Source: Solirubrobacterales bacterium
Lineage (GTDB): Bacteria; Actinomycetota; Thermoleophilia; Solirubrobacterales; 70-9
Assembly: GCA_020438425.1 (NCBI GenBank)
Contig: JAGQUQ010000006.1
Coordinates: forward strand, 1-55,049
DNA length: 55,049 bases
Direction of reading: 5' to 3'
The notes under the pieces are model-generated. The model saw only the letters and a list, made by a program, of their open reading frames with translations, had not been told where the DNA came from and ran no database searches. This document shows positions 20,766-45,102 of the stretch, one piece after another. How positions within the stretch are numbered: the stretch's first letter is position 1; each line of letters begins with the position of its first letter. Both the position numbers and the translations under genes were made by a program.

Positions 20766-20860
20766 CTTAACTGCAGTCGCGCCGGTCTACGCCGGCGCTC
20801 CAATTTCAACCCGCCCCTCCCACTCGAAGAAACGAATGGATGGGAGGGGCTCAGTTTGGA
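20766..20860. repeat. Two-hairpin structured repeat, copy 1
   Basis: Starts CTTAACTGCAGTC. Hairpin 1 is GCGCCGG (20779-20785) and CCGGCGC (20792-20798) with a 6-base loop. A 14-base spacer TCCAATTTCAACCC follows, then hairpin 2, GCCCCTCCCA (20813-20822) and TGGGAGGGGC (20841-20850), with an 18-base loop containing GAAGAAA. Copy 2 is at 44413-44508 with the same stem, loop and spacer lengths. It lies between the minus-strand APC permease stop (20864) and the next RCK gene. There is no T-run. It could be a REP-like element, an mRNA-stabilising structure or an attenuator. Confidence 0.8.
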
Positions 20861-39620: not shown

Positions 39621-40171
39621 CAGCCGACGGGAACACCGGCCCGGGCCGGGTCACCCTTCCACATGATCAGCGCGTCCTCGCCATTGTCCGGGTAGTAGGC
39701 CTTGCGGAGGCCAAAGGAGCGGAACCCGAGTCGCTCGTAAAGCTCGATCGCGGACCGGTTGGTGGGTCGAACCTCGAGCGTGACGGGATCCCGTCCGATC
39801 CGGTCCAGCGCTTCCGTAATCAGCCGGGAAGCGATTCCGCGGCGACGCTGCTCGGGGGCGATAGCGATGTTCATCAGGTGCCAGGCCCGGTCAAACCGGG
39901 ACATCACCAGGTAACCGACGACCCTGGTGTCTTCGACCGCGGCCAGCCCGATCGTGTCCGGCTTCGACAACTCCAGGGCAAACATGCCGACCGACCACGG
40001 ACTCGGAAACGAACGACGTTCGATCGAGATGACCGGAGGCAGGTCGGGGTAGTCGAGTTCGCGGACCTCGATCGAGTCGTACCCGGCCCCGAAGAAGCCG
40101 GGCTCATCCTCGGCCGGAGGTGCCTGTTCTGTGGTCGGTCTTGCCGTCTCGTTCAAGCCAGAGTTGGGCAT
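39620..40171 (-). CDS. rimI: Ribosomal protein S18 alanine N-acetyltransferase-like GNAT
   Basis: 183 residues. The GNAT core has VISIERRSFPSPWSVGMFA, VVGYLVMSRFDRAWHLMNIA, the acetyl-CoA loop Q-R-R-R-G-I-A (IAPEQRRRGIASRLITEALD), and LEVRPTNRSAIELYERLGFR. The order and its place between tsaB and tsaD identify RimI. The first ~25 residues (ETARPTTEQAPPAEDEPGFF) are an unusual disordered leader that overlaps the tsaB C-terminus by 68 bases; no later start codon is in frame before the domain. S18 as the substrate is inferred by family. Confidence 0.9.
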   Translation of the reverse strand: MPNSGLNETARPTTEQAPPAEDEPGFFGAGYDSIEVRELDYPDLPPVISIERRSFPSPWSVGMFALELSKPDTIGLAAVEDTRVVGYLVMSRFDRAWHLMNIAIAPEQRRRGIASRLITEALDRIGRDPVTLEVRPTNRSAIELYERLGFRSFGLRKAYYPDNGEDALIMWKGDPARAGVPVG

Positions 40172-40865
40172 CGGGGATTCGCAGGTAGAGGGGTTTGAGG
40201 GTTTCCGGTCCGGTCGCTTCCAGACTCGCTCCCAGTTCGCAGAGGGAGCGCCCGGCCAACCGGTGGACCGGTGATCCGTCCGGCTCTGTTTCTAACCCGG
40301 CCCGGAGCAATTCGCTTCGGAATCGTATCGCCCCCGGTCCGGCGGAAATCGGGAGTGACCTCCGCGAGGCGATCTCCTGCAGCCGCTCGACCAGTTCGAC
40401 CGGACCGCAGACGAAGGGGTCTTCGAGCGGGTTTCCCTCACCGTCGTGGAGTCCGCCGAAGACCTCGCCGCGCCGGGCATCGATCAGGGGCATCACCATG
40501 CCGGCACCGGCGATGGCGGCGCCGATCGAGCGGGCAAGTGCCGAAAGGGTCGGGACCCCGACCGGCGTGATCCCGGTCGAAGCAGCCAGTCCGGCGGCGG
40601 TTGCCACTCCGATCCGGATGCCGGTGAATGTGCCCGGGCCGATTCCTGCCGCGATCCTTTCCACCCTGTCCCAGCCACCAAGCGACTCCGCCGCCTCCCC
40701 CGCCGCTCCCAGCAGGGCCTGGCTGTGCACCGGGCGCCCGTCCGGCGGGAACACCCGTTCGAAGACGATCCGGCCGGCATCGGCCGCCGCCACGACGGTG
40801 TCATCAGTCGCGGTGTCGAAGCCAACCACTCTCAAAGCGAACCCCGATAGGCTGGCCTCACCCAA
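40104..40865 (-). CDS. tsaB: tRNA threonylcarbamoyladenosine biosynthesis protein TsaB
   Basis: 253 residues. The N-terminal VVGFDTATDDTVVAAADAGR is the TsaB version of the ASKHA strand. RPVHSQALLGAAGEAAESLG, IGPGTFTGIRIGVATAAGLA and MPLIDARRGEVFGGLHDG are characteristic. TsaB is the inactive TsaD paralogue that forms the TsaBD scaffold for t6A synthesis. It heads the operon tsaB-rimI-tsaD-grx-rex-ybdK-DUF1844. Its start is divergent from the small lipoprotein at 40902, with 36 bp between. Confidence 0.94.
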   Translation of the reverse strand: MGEASLSGFALRVVGFDTATDDTVVAAADAGRIVFERVFPPDGRPVHSQALLGAAGEAAESLGGWDRVERIAAGIGPGTFTGIRIGVATAAGLAASTGITPVGVPTLSALARSIGAAIAGAGMVMPLIDARRGEVFGGLHDGEGNPLEDPFVCGPVELVERLQEIASRRSLPISAGPGAIRFRSELLRAGLETEPDGSPVHRLAGRSLCELGASLEATGPETLKPLYLRIPDAQLWLERDGKTDHRTGTSGRG

Positions 40866-42610: not shown

Positions 42611-43479
42611 AGGTCCTCCGCACACCAGGCGAGATGCACGACCTCCGCGAATGGTTCCGGGACCAGCCGGAAACCGTGGGACTGGTTCCGACCATGGGTT
42701 ACCTGCACGAGGGCCACAACTCGCTTCTCAAGGCCGCCCGGGAAGAGAACGGGTTCGTGGTCATGAGCCTCTTCGTCAATCCGACCCAGTTCAAGGCCGG
42801 CGAGGATCTCAGCACCTACCCCCGGGACGAGGAACGCGACCTGGTGATTGCCGAAAGCTCCGGGGTTGACTTCATCTACGCCCCGGCACCCGATGACATC
42901 TATCCGTCGGGCTTCGCGACGAAAGTTGAAGTGGAGGGCCTGACCGAAGTTCTCTGCGGCAGCGAGACCAGCCGCGGCCCCGGACACTTCGCGGGAGTCA
43001 CCACGATCGTGGCCAAGCTGCTCAACGCGGTTGATCCGGATGTCGCGTACTTCGGCCAGAAGGACGCCCAGCAGGCGACCGTGATCCGGCGCATGGCCGA
43101 GGACCTGGAGTTCAGGACCAGGATCGTCATCCTGCCCACGGTCCGGGAGCGGGACGGTCTGGCGATGAGTTCGCGGAATGCCTACCTCAGCCCCGAGTCC
43201 CGCGAAAGGGCGACCGCAATCTGGTCCTCGCTGCTCGAGACCGAATCCGTCTTCGCGGAGCAGGGACTTGACGCGGCCCTCGACGCCGGAAGGCGACACC
43301 TTGAACTGGCCGGAATCACCCCCGAATACTTTGAAGCCCGGTACCCGGGCACCCTCGATCCAGCCGATGGAAACGGGACCGATCCGGTCCTGGTGGCCGT
43401 CGCCGCCAACGTGGACGGAACCCGGCTGATCGACAACATCCTGATCGAACCATCAAGCACTCACAGGAGGACAAAATGA
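42607..43479 (+). CDS. panC: Pantothenate synthetase (pantoate-beta-alanine ligase) PanC
   Basis: 290 residues. VGLVPTMGYLHEGHNSLL is the ATP/HIGH-like motif (P-T-M-G-x-L-H-x-G-H). MSLFVNPTQF, YPRDEERDL, GHFAGVTTIVAKLLN, AYFGQKDAQQATVIRRM and RERDGLAMSSRNAYLS complete the active site (KDAQQ, SSRN). It joins pantoate and beta-alanine through a pantoyl-adenylate in the cytosol. Overlaps panB by ATGA, and the DUF2520 gene by ATGA. Confidence 0.97.
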   Translation: MKVLRTPGEMHDLREWFRDQPETVGLVPTMGYLHEGHNSLLKAAREENGFVVMSLFVNPTQFKAGEDLSTYPRDEERDLVIAESSGVDFIYAPAPDDIYPSGFATKVEVEGLTEVLCGSETSRGPGHFAGVTTIVAKLLNAVDPDVAYFGQKDAQQATVIRRMAEDLEFRTRIVILPTVRERDGLAMSSRNAYLSPESRERATAIWSSLLETESVFAEQGLDAALDAGRRHLELAGITPEYFEARYPGTLDPADGNGTDPVLVAVAANVDGTRLIDNILIEPSSTHRRTK

Positions 43480-44417
43480 GCTCCGGAATCCGCAAAGATG
43501 GCGAGGAACGCCGCCCCGTGACCCTTACCCGGCTGGCCGAAATGCATGAAGCCGGTGAGCCGATCGCGATGATCACCGCCTACGACTTCCCCTCGGCCGA
43601 AGTGATCGAGGAGGCCGGAGCCGACATCGTGCTGGTCGGCGATTCGGCCGCCAACTGCGTGCTCGGATACGACTCGACCGTCCCGGTGGGCATGGACGAG
43701 ATGACGATGCTGGCCAAGGCCGTCCGACGGGGCCTGAAGACCCCGTTCCTGGTCGGCGACCTGCCCTTCGGCTCCTACGAAGGATCGAACGAACTGGCCA
43801 TCGCCAGCGCCCAGCGTCTGGTCAAGGAAGCCGGCTGCGACGCGGTAAAGCTGGAAGGCGGCGGCACCTCGGTCGAGCGGGCCCGGGCGATCATTGACGC
43901 CGGCATCCCGGTGATGGGTCATGTCGGTCTCACCCCCCAGACCGCGACTGCGCTGGGCGGGATGAAGGCCCAGGGACGCACCGCGCAGCAGGCGATTCGG
44001 GTGGCCGAGGATGCTGTCGCGCTCGATCAGGCCGGCTGCTTCGCGATCGTGATCGAGGCCGTCCCGGAAGCCGTGGCGGAGATGATCGTGGCCAAACTGG
44101 ACGCTCCCACGATCGGGATCGGTGCCGGCAACGCAACGGCCGGGCAGGTTCTGGTCCTTCACGATCTGGTCGGGATCAACCACGGCCACGTGGCCAAGTT
44201 CGTCAAGCGTTACTCGGACGTCCGCTCCGAGATGCTGCGCGGAGTCGAGGCCTACATCGACGAGGTCAGGAGCAGGAGCTTCCCCGCCCCTGAGCACGTT
44301 TACGCAGTCGACCCCTCCGAGCTCGAACCGCTCCGTCAGCGACTCAACCGGGAAGACCTCGAGCACCACTCCTACTTCGAGTCAAACTCGGGCTGGGACT
44401 GGGAACCCCTGTCTTAA
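43476..44417 (+). CDS. panB: 3-methyl-2-oxobutanoate hydroxymethyltransferase PanB
   Basis: 313 residues. MITAYDFPSAEVIEEAGADI, VGDSAANCVLGYDSTVPVGM, PFLVGDLPFGSY, AVKLEGGG, VMGHVGLTPQTA and GIGAGNATAGQVLVLHDLVG are PanB hallmarks. D in VGDS and in VGDLPFG bind Mg2+. The enzyme adds a hydroxymethyl group from 5,10-methylene-THF to ketoisovalerate. C-terminal residues extend ~40 beyond the core (ELEPLRQRLNREDLEHHS), common in actinobacteria. The stop codon TAA falls inside the structured repeat (44413-44508). Confidence 0.96.
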   Translation: MSSGIRKDGEERRPVTLTRLAEMHEAGEPIAMITAYDFPSAEVIEEAGADIVLVGDSAANCVLGYDSTVPVGMDEMTMLAKAVRRGLKTPFLVGDLPFGSYEGSNELAIASAQRLVKEAGCDAVKLEGGGTSVERARAIIDAGIPVMGHVGLTPQTATALGGMKAQGRTAQQAIRVAEDAVALDQAGCFAIVIEAVPEAVAEMIVAKLDAPTIGIGAGNATAGQVLVLHDLVGINHGHVAKFVKRYSDVRSEMLRGVEAYIDEVRSRSFPAPEHVYAVDPSELEPLRQRLNREDLEHHSYFESNSGWDWEPLS

Positions 44418-44508
44418 CTGCAAGTCGGGCGGGGTCCGACCCGCCCTCCCAGTTCAACCCGCCCCTCCCACTTGAAGAAAATGATGGTTGGGAGGGGCTC
44501 TGGCCGGA
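44413..44508. repeat. Two-hairpin structured repeat, copy 2
   Basis: Starts CTTAACTGCAAGTC, which includes the panB stop. Hairpin 1 is GGGCGGG (44427-44433) and CCCGCCC (44440-44446), 6-base loop. A 14-base spacer TCCCAGTTCAACCC follows, then hairpin 2, GCCCCTCCCA (44461-44470) and TGGGAGGGGC (44489-44498), 18-base loop. Compared with copy 1, two base pairs of hairpin 1 are exchanged in a compensatory way while hairpin 2 stems are identical. It lies between convergent panB and the acyltransferase gene. Confidence 0.8.
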
Positions 44509-44511
44509 GGT

Positions 44512-45102
44512 TCATTCGGAGAGGAACTCGACTTTTCGGATTGGTTTGGCGGGTGAGCCGGCGGCGATCGTCTGATCGGGAATGTCGGTGGTGACCACCG
44601 AGTTGGCCCCGATCACGCAGTGGTCTCCGATCGTCACGCCGGAGGTGACCACGACGTTGACTCCCAGCCAGACGTTGGAGCCGATTCGGACCGGTCCCTT
44701 GCTGGTGAAGCCCTGCCAGGTGATCGGCAGGTCGGGGTCGTCGAAACGGTGGCTGGCGTCACCTATGAAGCAGCCGTTGGCAAACATCACGTGGTCACCG
44801 ACGGTCACTTCGTTCTCGGCCGCCAGCATCACGTTCCGGTTCATCCAGACATCGTCGCCGAGGGTGACTTTCGCGTGGTCCGACATGGTGAACCAGCAGC
44901 CCGGTTCGAAGTGGCATCCCTGGCCGATCGTCAGCTGACCCGAGCGCAGGGCACCGAGCACGTCGCCTTCGATCGGATGCCGGACGTAGGAGCCGTGCCG
45001 GGCCATTTCCCGGTCCAGCATCAGGCGTCGCAGCGGACGGTGCGTGCGTTCGTACCAGCGACGTTTCTGCCACCACATTTTCCATCCGCGCTGGTCGCTC
45101 AT
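44512..45102 (-). CDS. Hexapeptide-repeat acyltransferase (left-handed beta-helix)
   Basis: 196 residues. About nine hexapeptide turns run from LTIGQGCHFEPG to GVTIGDHCVIGANSVVTTDI, with the loop CFIGDASHRFDDPDLPITWQ between them and C-terminal IAAGSPAKPIRKVEF. This is the Maa/NodL/CatB-type trimeric acyltransferase fold; the His in GDASHRFDD is a plausible catalytic base. Substrates in the family are sugars, nodulation factors, chloramphenicol or lipid intermediates; which applies is unknown. The basic Trp-rich N-terminus (WKMWWQKRRWYERTHRPLRR) may bind membranes. Monocistronic. Confidence 0.87.
   Translation of the reverse strand: MSDQRGWKMWWQKRRWYERTHRPLRRLMLDREMARHGSYVRHPIEGDVLGALRSGQLTIGQGCHFEPGCWFTMSDHAKVTLGDDVWMNRNVMLAAENEVTVGDHVMFANGCFIGDASHRFDDPDLPITWQGFTSKGPVRIGSNVWLGVNVVVTSGVTIGDHCVIGANSVVTTDIPDQTIAAGSPAKPIRKVEFLSE

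Follow-up and report, generated by a model that had tools for sequence, protein, structure and literature searches.

The repeat found twice in the window (the whole stretch of 55,049 nucleotides that was analysed) represents a real family of REP-like units with an unusual composite anatomy, for which no RAYT was detected. Its members are dispersed, inserted in a species-specific manner, overlap stop codons and have maintained their base pairing. We consider it probable that the repeat is a non-autonomous, dispersed unit of the REP kind, which was spread by insertion through part of one Solirubrobacterales genus, was moved in trans and was later kept at the 3' ends of genes. The source is a metagenome-assembled genome (G000; 2.57 Mb, 250 contigs, 82.8% complete) of a member of the Solirubrobacterales that belongs taxonomically to the same genus as strain 67-14.

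Anatomy and members of the family

Direct reading of the window bore out two copies with the flanks, hairpins and spacer that had been described in the original prediction, and both hairpins are supported by folding. The features are as follows.

20766-20852, + strand: copy 1 of the repeat, core up to TC
20766-20778, + strand: left terminus of copy 1, CTTAACTGCA (20766-20775) followed by GTC
20779-20798, + strand: hairpin 1 of copy 1 (GCGCCGG-TCTACG-CCGGCGC); stem 20779-20785/20792-20798, 7 bp, 6-nt loop TCTACG
20799-20812, + strand: spacer of copy 1, TCCAATTTCAACCC, 14 nt
20813-20850, + strand: hairpin 2 of copy 1 (GCCCCTCCCA / TGGGAGGGGC); stem 20813-20822/20841-20850, 10 bp, 18-nt loop
20851-20861, + strand: right terminus TC and tail AGTTTGGAA of copy 1; right end approximate, from comparison with empty sites
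44413-44500, + strand: copy 2 of the repeat, core, elements in the order of copy 1
44413-44426, + strand: left terminus of copy 2, CTTAACTGCAA followed by GTC
44427-44446, + strand: hairpin 1 of copy 2 (GGGCGGG-GTCCGA-CCCGCCC); stem 44427-44433/44440-44446
44447-44460, + strand: spacer of copy 2, TCCCAGTTCAACCC
44461-44498, + strand: hairpin 2 of copy 2; stem 44461-44470/44489-44498
44499-44511, + strand: right terminus and tail of copy 2 (TCTGGCCGGAGGT)

The two copies share the left terminus (C)TTAACTGCA(A)GTC, a 14-nt spacer that ends in AACCC, and GGGGCTC after hairpin 2. In hairpin 1, the second and fifth pairs indeed read C-G in copy 1 versus G-C in copy 2. The conserved part reaches some 9-11 nt beyond GGGGCTC (consensus YGYCTGGTGG), in rough agreement with the end coordinates originally given. 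The motif GAAGAAA, which had been thought to be kept in the loop of hairpin 2, is not a feature of the family: many copies have GAAGTAA, GAAACAA or CACATTCA instead.

The exact flank pattern occurs at three places in the 2.57-Mb genome and nowhere when read backwards, a sequence search yielded about 40 scored matches and a covariance model about 88 convincing copies; the recurrence is thus not due to chance. The model (R1) was built from 27 copies and a broader one (R2) from 104 copies; 86 copies of the source genome were kept, being the 87 listed minus one weak false match. The covariance-model search that had been proposed for the genome and its relatives also retrieved 1-81 copies in each of eight congeners, which overturns the possibility that no further copies exist and that the similarity is confined to a recent duplication. 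Within the genome the closest paralogues are mostly 83-91% identical, with a maximum of 95%, and therefore do not point to a recent burst.

The consensus of the unit is (C)TTAACTGCA-GTC-[hairpin 1]-TCC-N5-AACCCG-[hairpin 2]-CTC-YGYCTGG, about 97-100 bp in total. The left terminus and the linker AACCCG are invariant, as are portions of the loop of hairpin 2 (ATGG), CTC and the tail YGYCTGG. The stem of hairpin 1 comes in the types GGGCGGG, GCGCCGG, GGTCCGG, GACGGGC, GAGCGAG, ATCCGG and others, mostly with the loop TCTKCG or GTCCGA, and that of hairpin 2 in the types CCCCTCCCA, CCGGCCCA, CCCGATCA, TCCGTTCA and others. The hairpin-1 types were found together with most of the hairpin-2 types, and this wide combination marks the unit as a mosaic. 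The two hairpins themselves are unlike in length, loop and flanks. REPs of the GTAG or CGTC class have GTAG or CGTC/TGTC/CCTC beside the stem; here the tag is mostly AGTC, and about 23 of the 213 copies from all carrier genomes show CGTC or TGTC. The AT-starting stem of the ATCCGG subtype occurs in only about 20 of the 213, and most copies have AGTC and G+C-rich stems. One tandem pair was seen (locus L008, G000:C66 11948-12098), in which the upstream copy is broken off within hairpin 2 where the next begins.

The claim that structure rather than sequence is conserved holds for the family at large. The stems vary almost freely and yet pair in 96.9% of the stem cells (87 copies), as compared to 33-59% in slid controls. 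In the same copies 223 both-sided stem changes were observed versus 58.7 in shuffles, and none of 500 shuffles reached 223. G-U pairs are nearly absent (9 of 1396 stem cells). A comparison between strands of G-U versus A-C gave 9 versus 20 in alignment A4 and 10 versus 25 in alignment A8, numbers that are small and derive mostly from one hairpin-1 subtype. The rarity of G-U points to palindromes at the level of DNA at least as much as to RNA. A third helix, between the spacer and the right tail, was also considered; it looked plausible in some copies (e.g. on contigs C211 and C195 of G000) and was unsupported over 34 or 136 copies.

Neither window copy matched an Rfam family at the gathering threshold, the best weak matches to copy 1 having an E-value of 0.12 or worse. 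A plasmid collection yielded partial, non-significant matches only, viral contigs contained no exact match to the pattern, and nothing relevant on repeats in Solirubrobacterales or Thermoleophilia was found in the literature covered. Together with the dispersed extragenic copies, the covariation and the location at 3' ends, the lack of an Rfam match supports the original suggestion of an undescribed REP-like or RNA element.

Distribution and gain at orthologous sites

The family was found in nine genomes of a single genus (G000, G001, G007 and G010-G015), with 1-88 copies each. These are nine of the 18 congeners, the source genome included; no copies were found in the remaining nine or in 183 further genomes of the order. 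Order-wide, 9 of 201 genomes and one of 51 genera carry the family, where R1 was run over 41 genomes and R2 over all 201, under strict filters by which weak relatives may be lost. The congeners include Solirubrobacterales bacterium 67-14 (MKST01), JAIBCJ01, JAGQUT01, JAUPTY01 and JAFKLL01. The lone R1 match outside the genus (G033, E-value 0.002) is weak and not convincing. Exact matches to the pattern came from MAGs of the Solirubrobacterales and Actinomycetota, the one exception being a contig end in a Hyphomicrobiales MAG. The latter contig (L096:1-68, JAFKJW010000054.1) starts inside a copy that matches one in G010, the flanking gene being identical to that of G010, and is probably a mis-binned Solirubrobacterales contig.

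A comparison of orthologous sites revealed differences between species. At the site of copy 1, flanked by genes for a TrkA-like protein and an amino-acid permease, none of the 11 relatives compared has a copy, the aligned gene ends being separated by 6-43 nt; copy 1 is thus a derived insertion in this species. The site of copy 2 is empty in G011, G012 and others. In G001 it is occupied by another subtype, offset by about 4 nt, which begins right after an intact TGA, whereas in the source genome the TAA of the element serves as the stop. Relative to G010, nine syntenic sites carry a copy in both genomes, and at 13 or more the source genome alone has one; at several of the latter the convergent genes of G010 are just 3-6 nt apart. 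Orthologous filled sites for which both flanking genes were matched comprise 58 pairs with the same orientation and 14 that are flipped. This pattern of gain and loss is the behaviour of a mobile element, with a polarity that is set for a few individual sites. No target-site duplication could be defined.

Some of these sites hold other repeats. The copy 2 site of G010 (L274, G010:C11 ~44058-44135) contains a second dispersed repeat (CGGGACGGTCGCGGGCGGCATTCAGCCGCC...ACCCGACCCCACGGCTAC), which is also present at G010:C11 ~639779-639855 (L195); four occurrences of its core were counted in 800 kb of G010, and similar sequence lies beside some copies of the source genome (L012, L015). The same intergenic site in G014 (L275, G014:C2 ~39912-40639) is occupied by a tandem array with units of about 200 nt. 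Near 626069-626134 of G010:C11 (site 5, with a copy in the source genome) there is a long perfect inverted repeat instead, AAGTAAGGAAAGTTGGCAA-TAG-TTGCCAACTTTCCTTACTT, preceded by a stretch of GCAGTCGG that may be left over from the element.

The copies that were retained allow a view on what happens to the hairpins in place. In 20 well-aligning orthologous pairs, 7.7% of the stem sites had changed versus 25.8% of the unpaired sites, and 16 stem pairs had switched to another Watson-Crick pair. If both sides changed independently, about two double changes of any kind would be expected, and well below one that still pairs. The compensatory changes in orthologous copies thus indicate that the structure was kept after insertion, which goes beyond what would be needed by a repeat that is purely selfish and decaying. 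The upkeep may result from selection or from correction by template switching, and the rarity of G-U fits both. A purely mutational origin of the covariation, in which intrastrand template switching corrects imperfect palindromes and structure is not selected, would account for the near-absence of G-U and of single-sided intermediates and for the many flips from G-C to C-G that bypass G-U. We nevertheless consider it quite unlikely, as it leaves the conserved termini, linkers and loop motifs and the dispersal unexplained, and the rate of change in the orthologous pairs is about threefold lower at stem sites than at unpaired ones.

Considering the species-specific insertion, the empty and filled orthologous sites, the patchy distribution and the near-absence of G-U, a mobile DNA repeat of the REP kind has more in its favour than a free RNA gene. 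Against a mobile repeat stand the lack of a mobilising gene, of a target-site duplication and of a recent burst, and the upkeep of the stems by compensatory change after insertion.

Position at the 3' ends of genes

Gene calls came from a simple codon-usage caller that had been trained on the window. In the source genome a gene reads into the left end of 65 of the 86 copies, and in 54 of these 65 the stop codon lies at -10 to +4 nt relative to the start of the model. Copy 2 provides an example: the TAA at 44415-44417 in its left terminus is the stop codon of gene 43476-44417, which encodes a member of the ketopantoate hydroxymethyltransferase family (Pfam), and its tail runs directly up to the stop codon with which the convergent gene for a hexapeptide transferase ends (44512-45102, - strand).

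The preference is general. Both flanking genes were called for 203 of the 213 copies in the nine genomes (one copy of this set stems from the mis-binned contig), and 93 of these lie between convergent genes, 61 are co-directional in sense, 31 co-directional in antisense and 18 divergent. With an odds ratio of 4.5 (p ~3e-18), the convergent arrangement is strongly enriched relative to the 129 of 819 adjacent gene pairs in the window and 800 kb of G010, and within co-directional pairs sense prevails over antisense (61 versus 31, p = 0.002). The stops that abut the left end (n=134) are TAA in 76, TGA in 37 and TAG in 21 cases, whereas all genes in 800 kb of G010 (n=768) use TGA in 506, TAG in 201 and TAA in 61 cases. 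This excess of TAA (57% versus 8%, p ~3e-36) implies that the element usually supplies the stop. In 117 of 140 cases 3-16 nt separate the stop from hairpin 1, and in all eight inverted pairs the right ends face each other and the left ends point outward.

Such a placement raises the question of a function in the mRNA. The repeat could be a 3'-UTR element selected by the host, either an insulator like the ribosome termination structure (RTS) or an RNA-stability hairpin, that was spread by recombination because it is useful. The distance to the stop is near the peak reported for bacterial RTS (PMC7518266), and the excess of sense over antisense, the outward left ends of the inverted pairs and the compensatory changes that keep the stems in place agree with this proposal. 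However, 31 antisense and 18 divergent placements do not, nine sister species live without the repeat, the low number of G-U pairs is unusual for RNA, and an insulator would not need conserved termini and linkers. As an explanation of the family we hold it to be possible but on the whole unlikely; an additional role at the mRNA level at 3' ends may nevertheless exist.

A family of intrinsic transcription terminators would likewise consist of stable G+C-rich hairpins at 3' ends, often between convergent genes. Yet no U-tract follows hairpin 2 on the + strand or hairpins 1 and 2 on the - strand, the tail YGYCTGG is not U-rich, sister species do without the family, and at site 74 a classical T-tract terminator is found just downstream in the filled and the empty genome alike, all of which makes this origin improbable. 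When the regions downstream of the copies were scanned for terminators by a simple method, one of 86 gave a match; the scan also missed the site-74 terminator, which is visible by eye, and is therefore given no weight. Hairpins right after stop codons, with the left end toward the gene, are also reminiscent of integron attC sites used by a tyrosine recombinase. But the copies are dispersed singly and do not form cassette arrays, two hairpins stand against the one bulged fold of attC, and G000 and G015 each encode just two tyrosine recombinases, as would be expected for XerC/XerD, so that we regard a kinship with attC as highly improbable.

Proposed mobilisation and relation to known repeats

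The movement of REPs and REPINs is ascribed to RAYTs, which are HUH enzymes with the ability to bind single-stranded DNA in its folded form (PMC3116915, PMC8266576). The corresponding Y1 transposase (PF01797) was found in none of the nine copy-bearing genomes, several of which are incomplete MAGs, with G001, G010 and G014 being 94-96% complete; a match was obtained only in the copy-free G004, and controls were positive. Reverse transcriptases (RVT_1) and IS110 (DEDD) transposases were likewise absent from the copy-bearing genomes with positive controls, whereas the search for IS91-type (Y2) transposases gave no matches with a control that was silent too. The counts of tyrosine recombinases do not follow the copy number.

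The preferred reading of a REP-like unit moved in trans could then take the following form. The unit would have been moved, probably as folded single-stranded DNA, by an enzyme other than a detectable Y1 transposase that recognises the hairpins by their shape, as TnpA-REP does for REPs; this enzyme may have been lost since. Insertion would mostly have been into tiny intergenic gaps at the 3' ends of genes, where it would be tolerated, since the left end brings along a stop, usually TAA, in the frame of the incoming gene. Placed 3-16 nt past the stop, the hairpins may have been kept in shape as useful, or at least harmless, structures that act at the mRNA 3' end or insulate translation. The more specific notion, that a RAYT-unrelated enzyme which reads hairpin shape moved the composite unit and set its left terminus at stop codons, is rather speculative and, in our estimate, does not have the odds in its favour.

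The similarity to REPs and REPINs (PMC3116915, PMC8266576) is extensive. The units are short, high-copy, extragenic, hairpin-forming and non-autonomous, they show compensatory changes in the stems and they are patchy among related genomes. As with REPs, which come in tens to hundreds of short palindromic extragenic copies, they are numerous (about 88 in the source genome) and prefer convergent and co-directional 3' ends (93 + 92 versus 18 divergent). However, a REPIN is an inverted pair of the same REP, whereas the repeat described here has two dissimilar hairpins in a fixed order, conserved linkers and termini beyond the hairpins, and no Y1 transposase in the carrier genomes. In the last respect it resembles the CGTC-tagged REPs, which are said to have no dedicated transposase, the mobiliser being left open, and which also lie near the 3' ends of flanking genes (PMC3733652). 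More specifically, the hairpin-1 subtype CGTC/TGTC-ATCCGG-N6-CCGGAT-GAC-CA resembles their CGTC tag, A-T first pairs and CCA tail (PMC3733652), but a stem starting with A-T is restricted to the minor subtype mentioned above, and a second, unlike hairpin is always attached. The main text of that paper does not mention Actinobacteria. Another parallel exists with the GTAG-tagged REPs, the end of which gives the stop codon of the flanking ORF (PMC3733652); there it is TAG, while here it is mainly TAA, the position of which is fixed within a composite unit of greater length. Finally, in the account given in PMC12548453, the mycobacterial MIRUs are also short, mobile-looking and actinobacterial, fit gene boundaries exactly, affect the neighbours only minimally and overlap boundary codons, as the left end does with stop codons here. 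By that account, however, start codons are where MIRUs insert, and an internal ORF couples translation, whereas in our family the stop side is fixed and there are two hairpins.

If a shape-reading enzyme other than a RAYT is indeed the mover, the family would offer a first handle on the spread of REPs that lack a RAYT, such as those of the CGTC type. The even split of the genus, nine genomes with and nine without the repeat, means that a gene that tracks its presence can be sought directly. Moreover, the upkeep of the hairpins at orthologous sites helps to tell whether a repeat is purely selfish or has a role at the 3' ends of genes.
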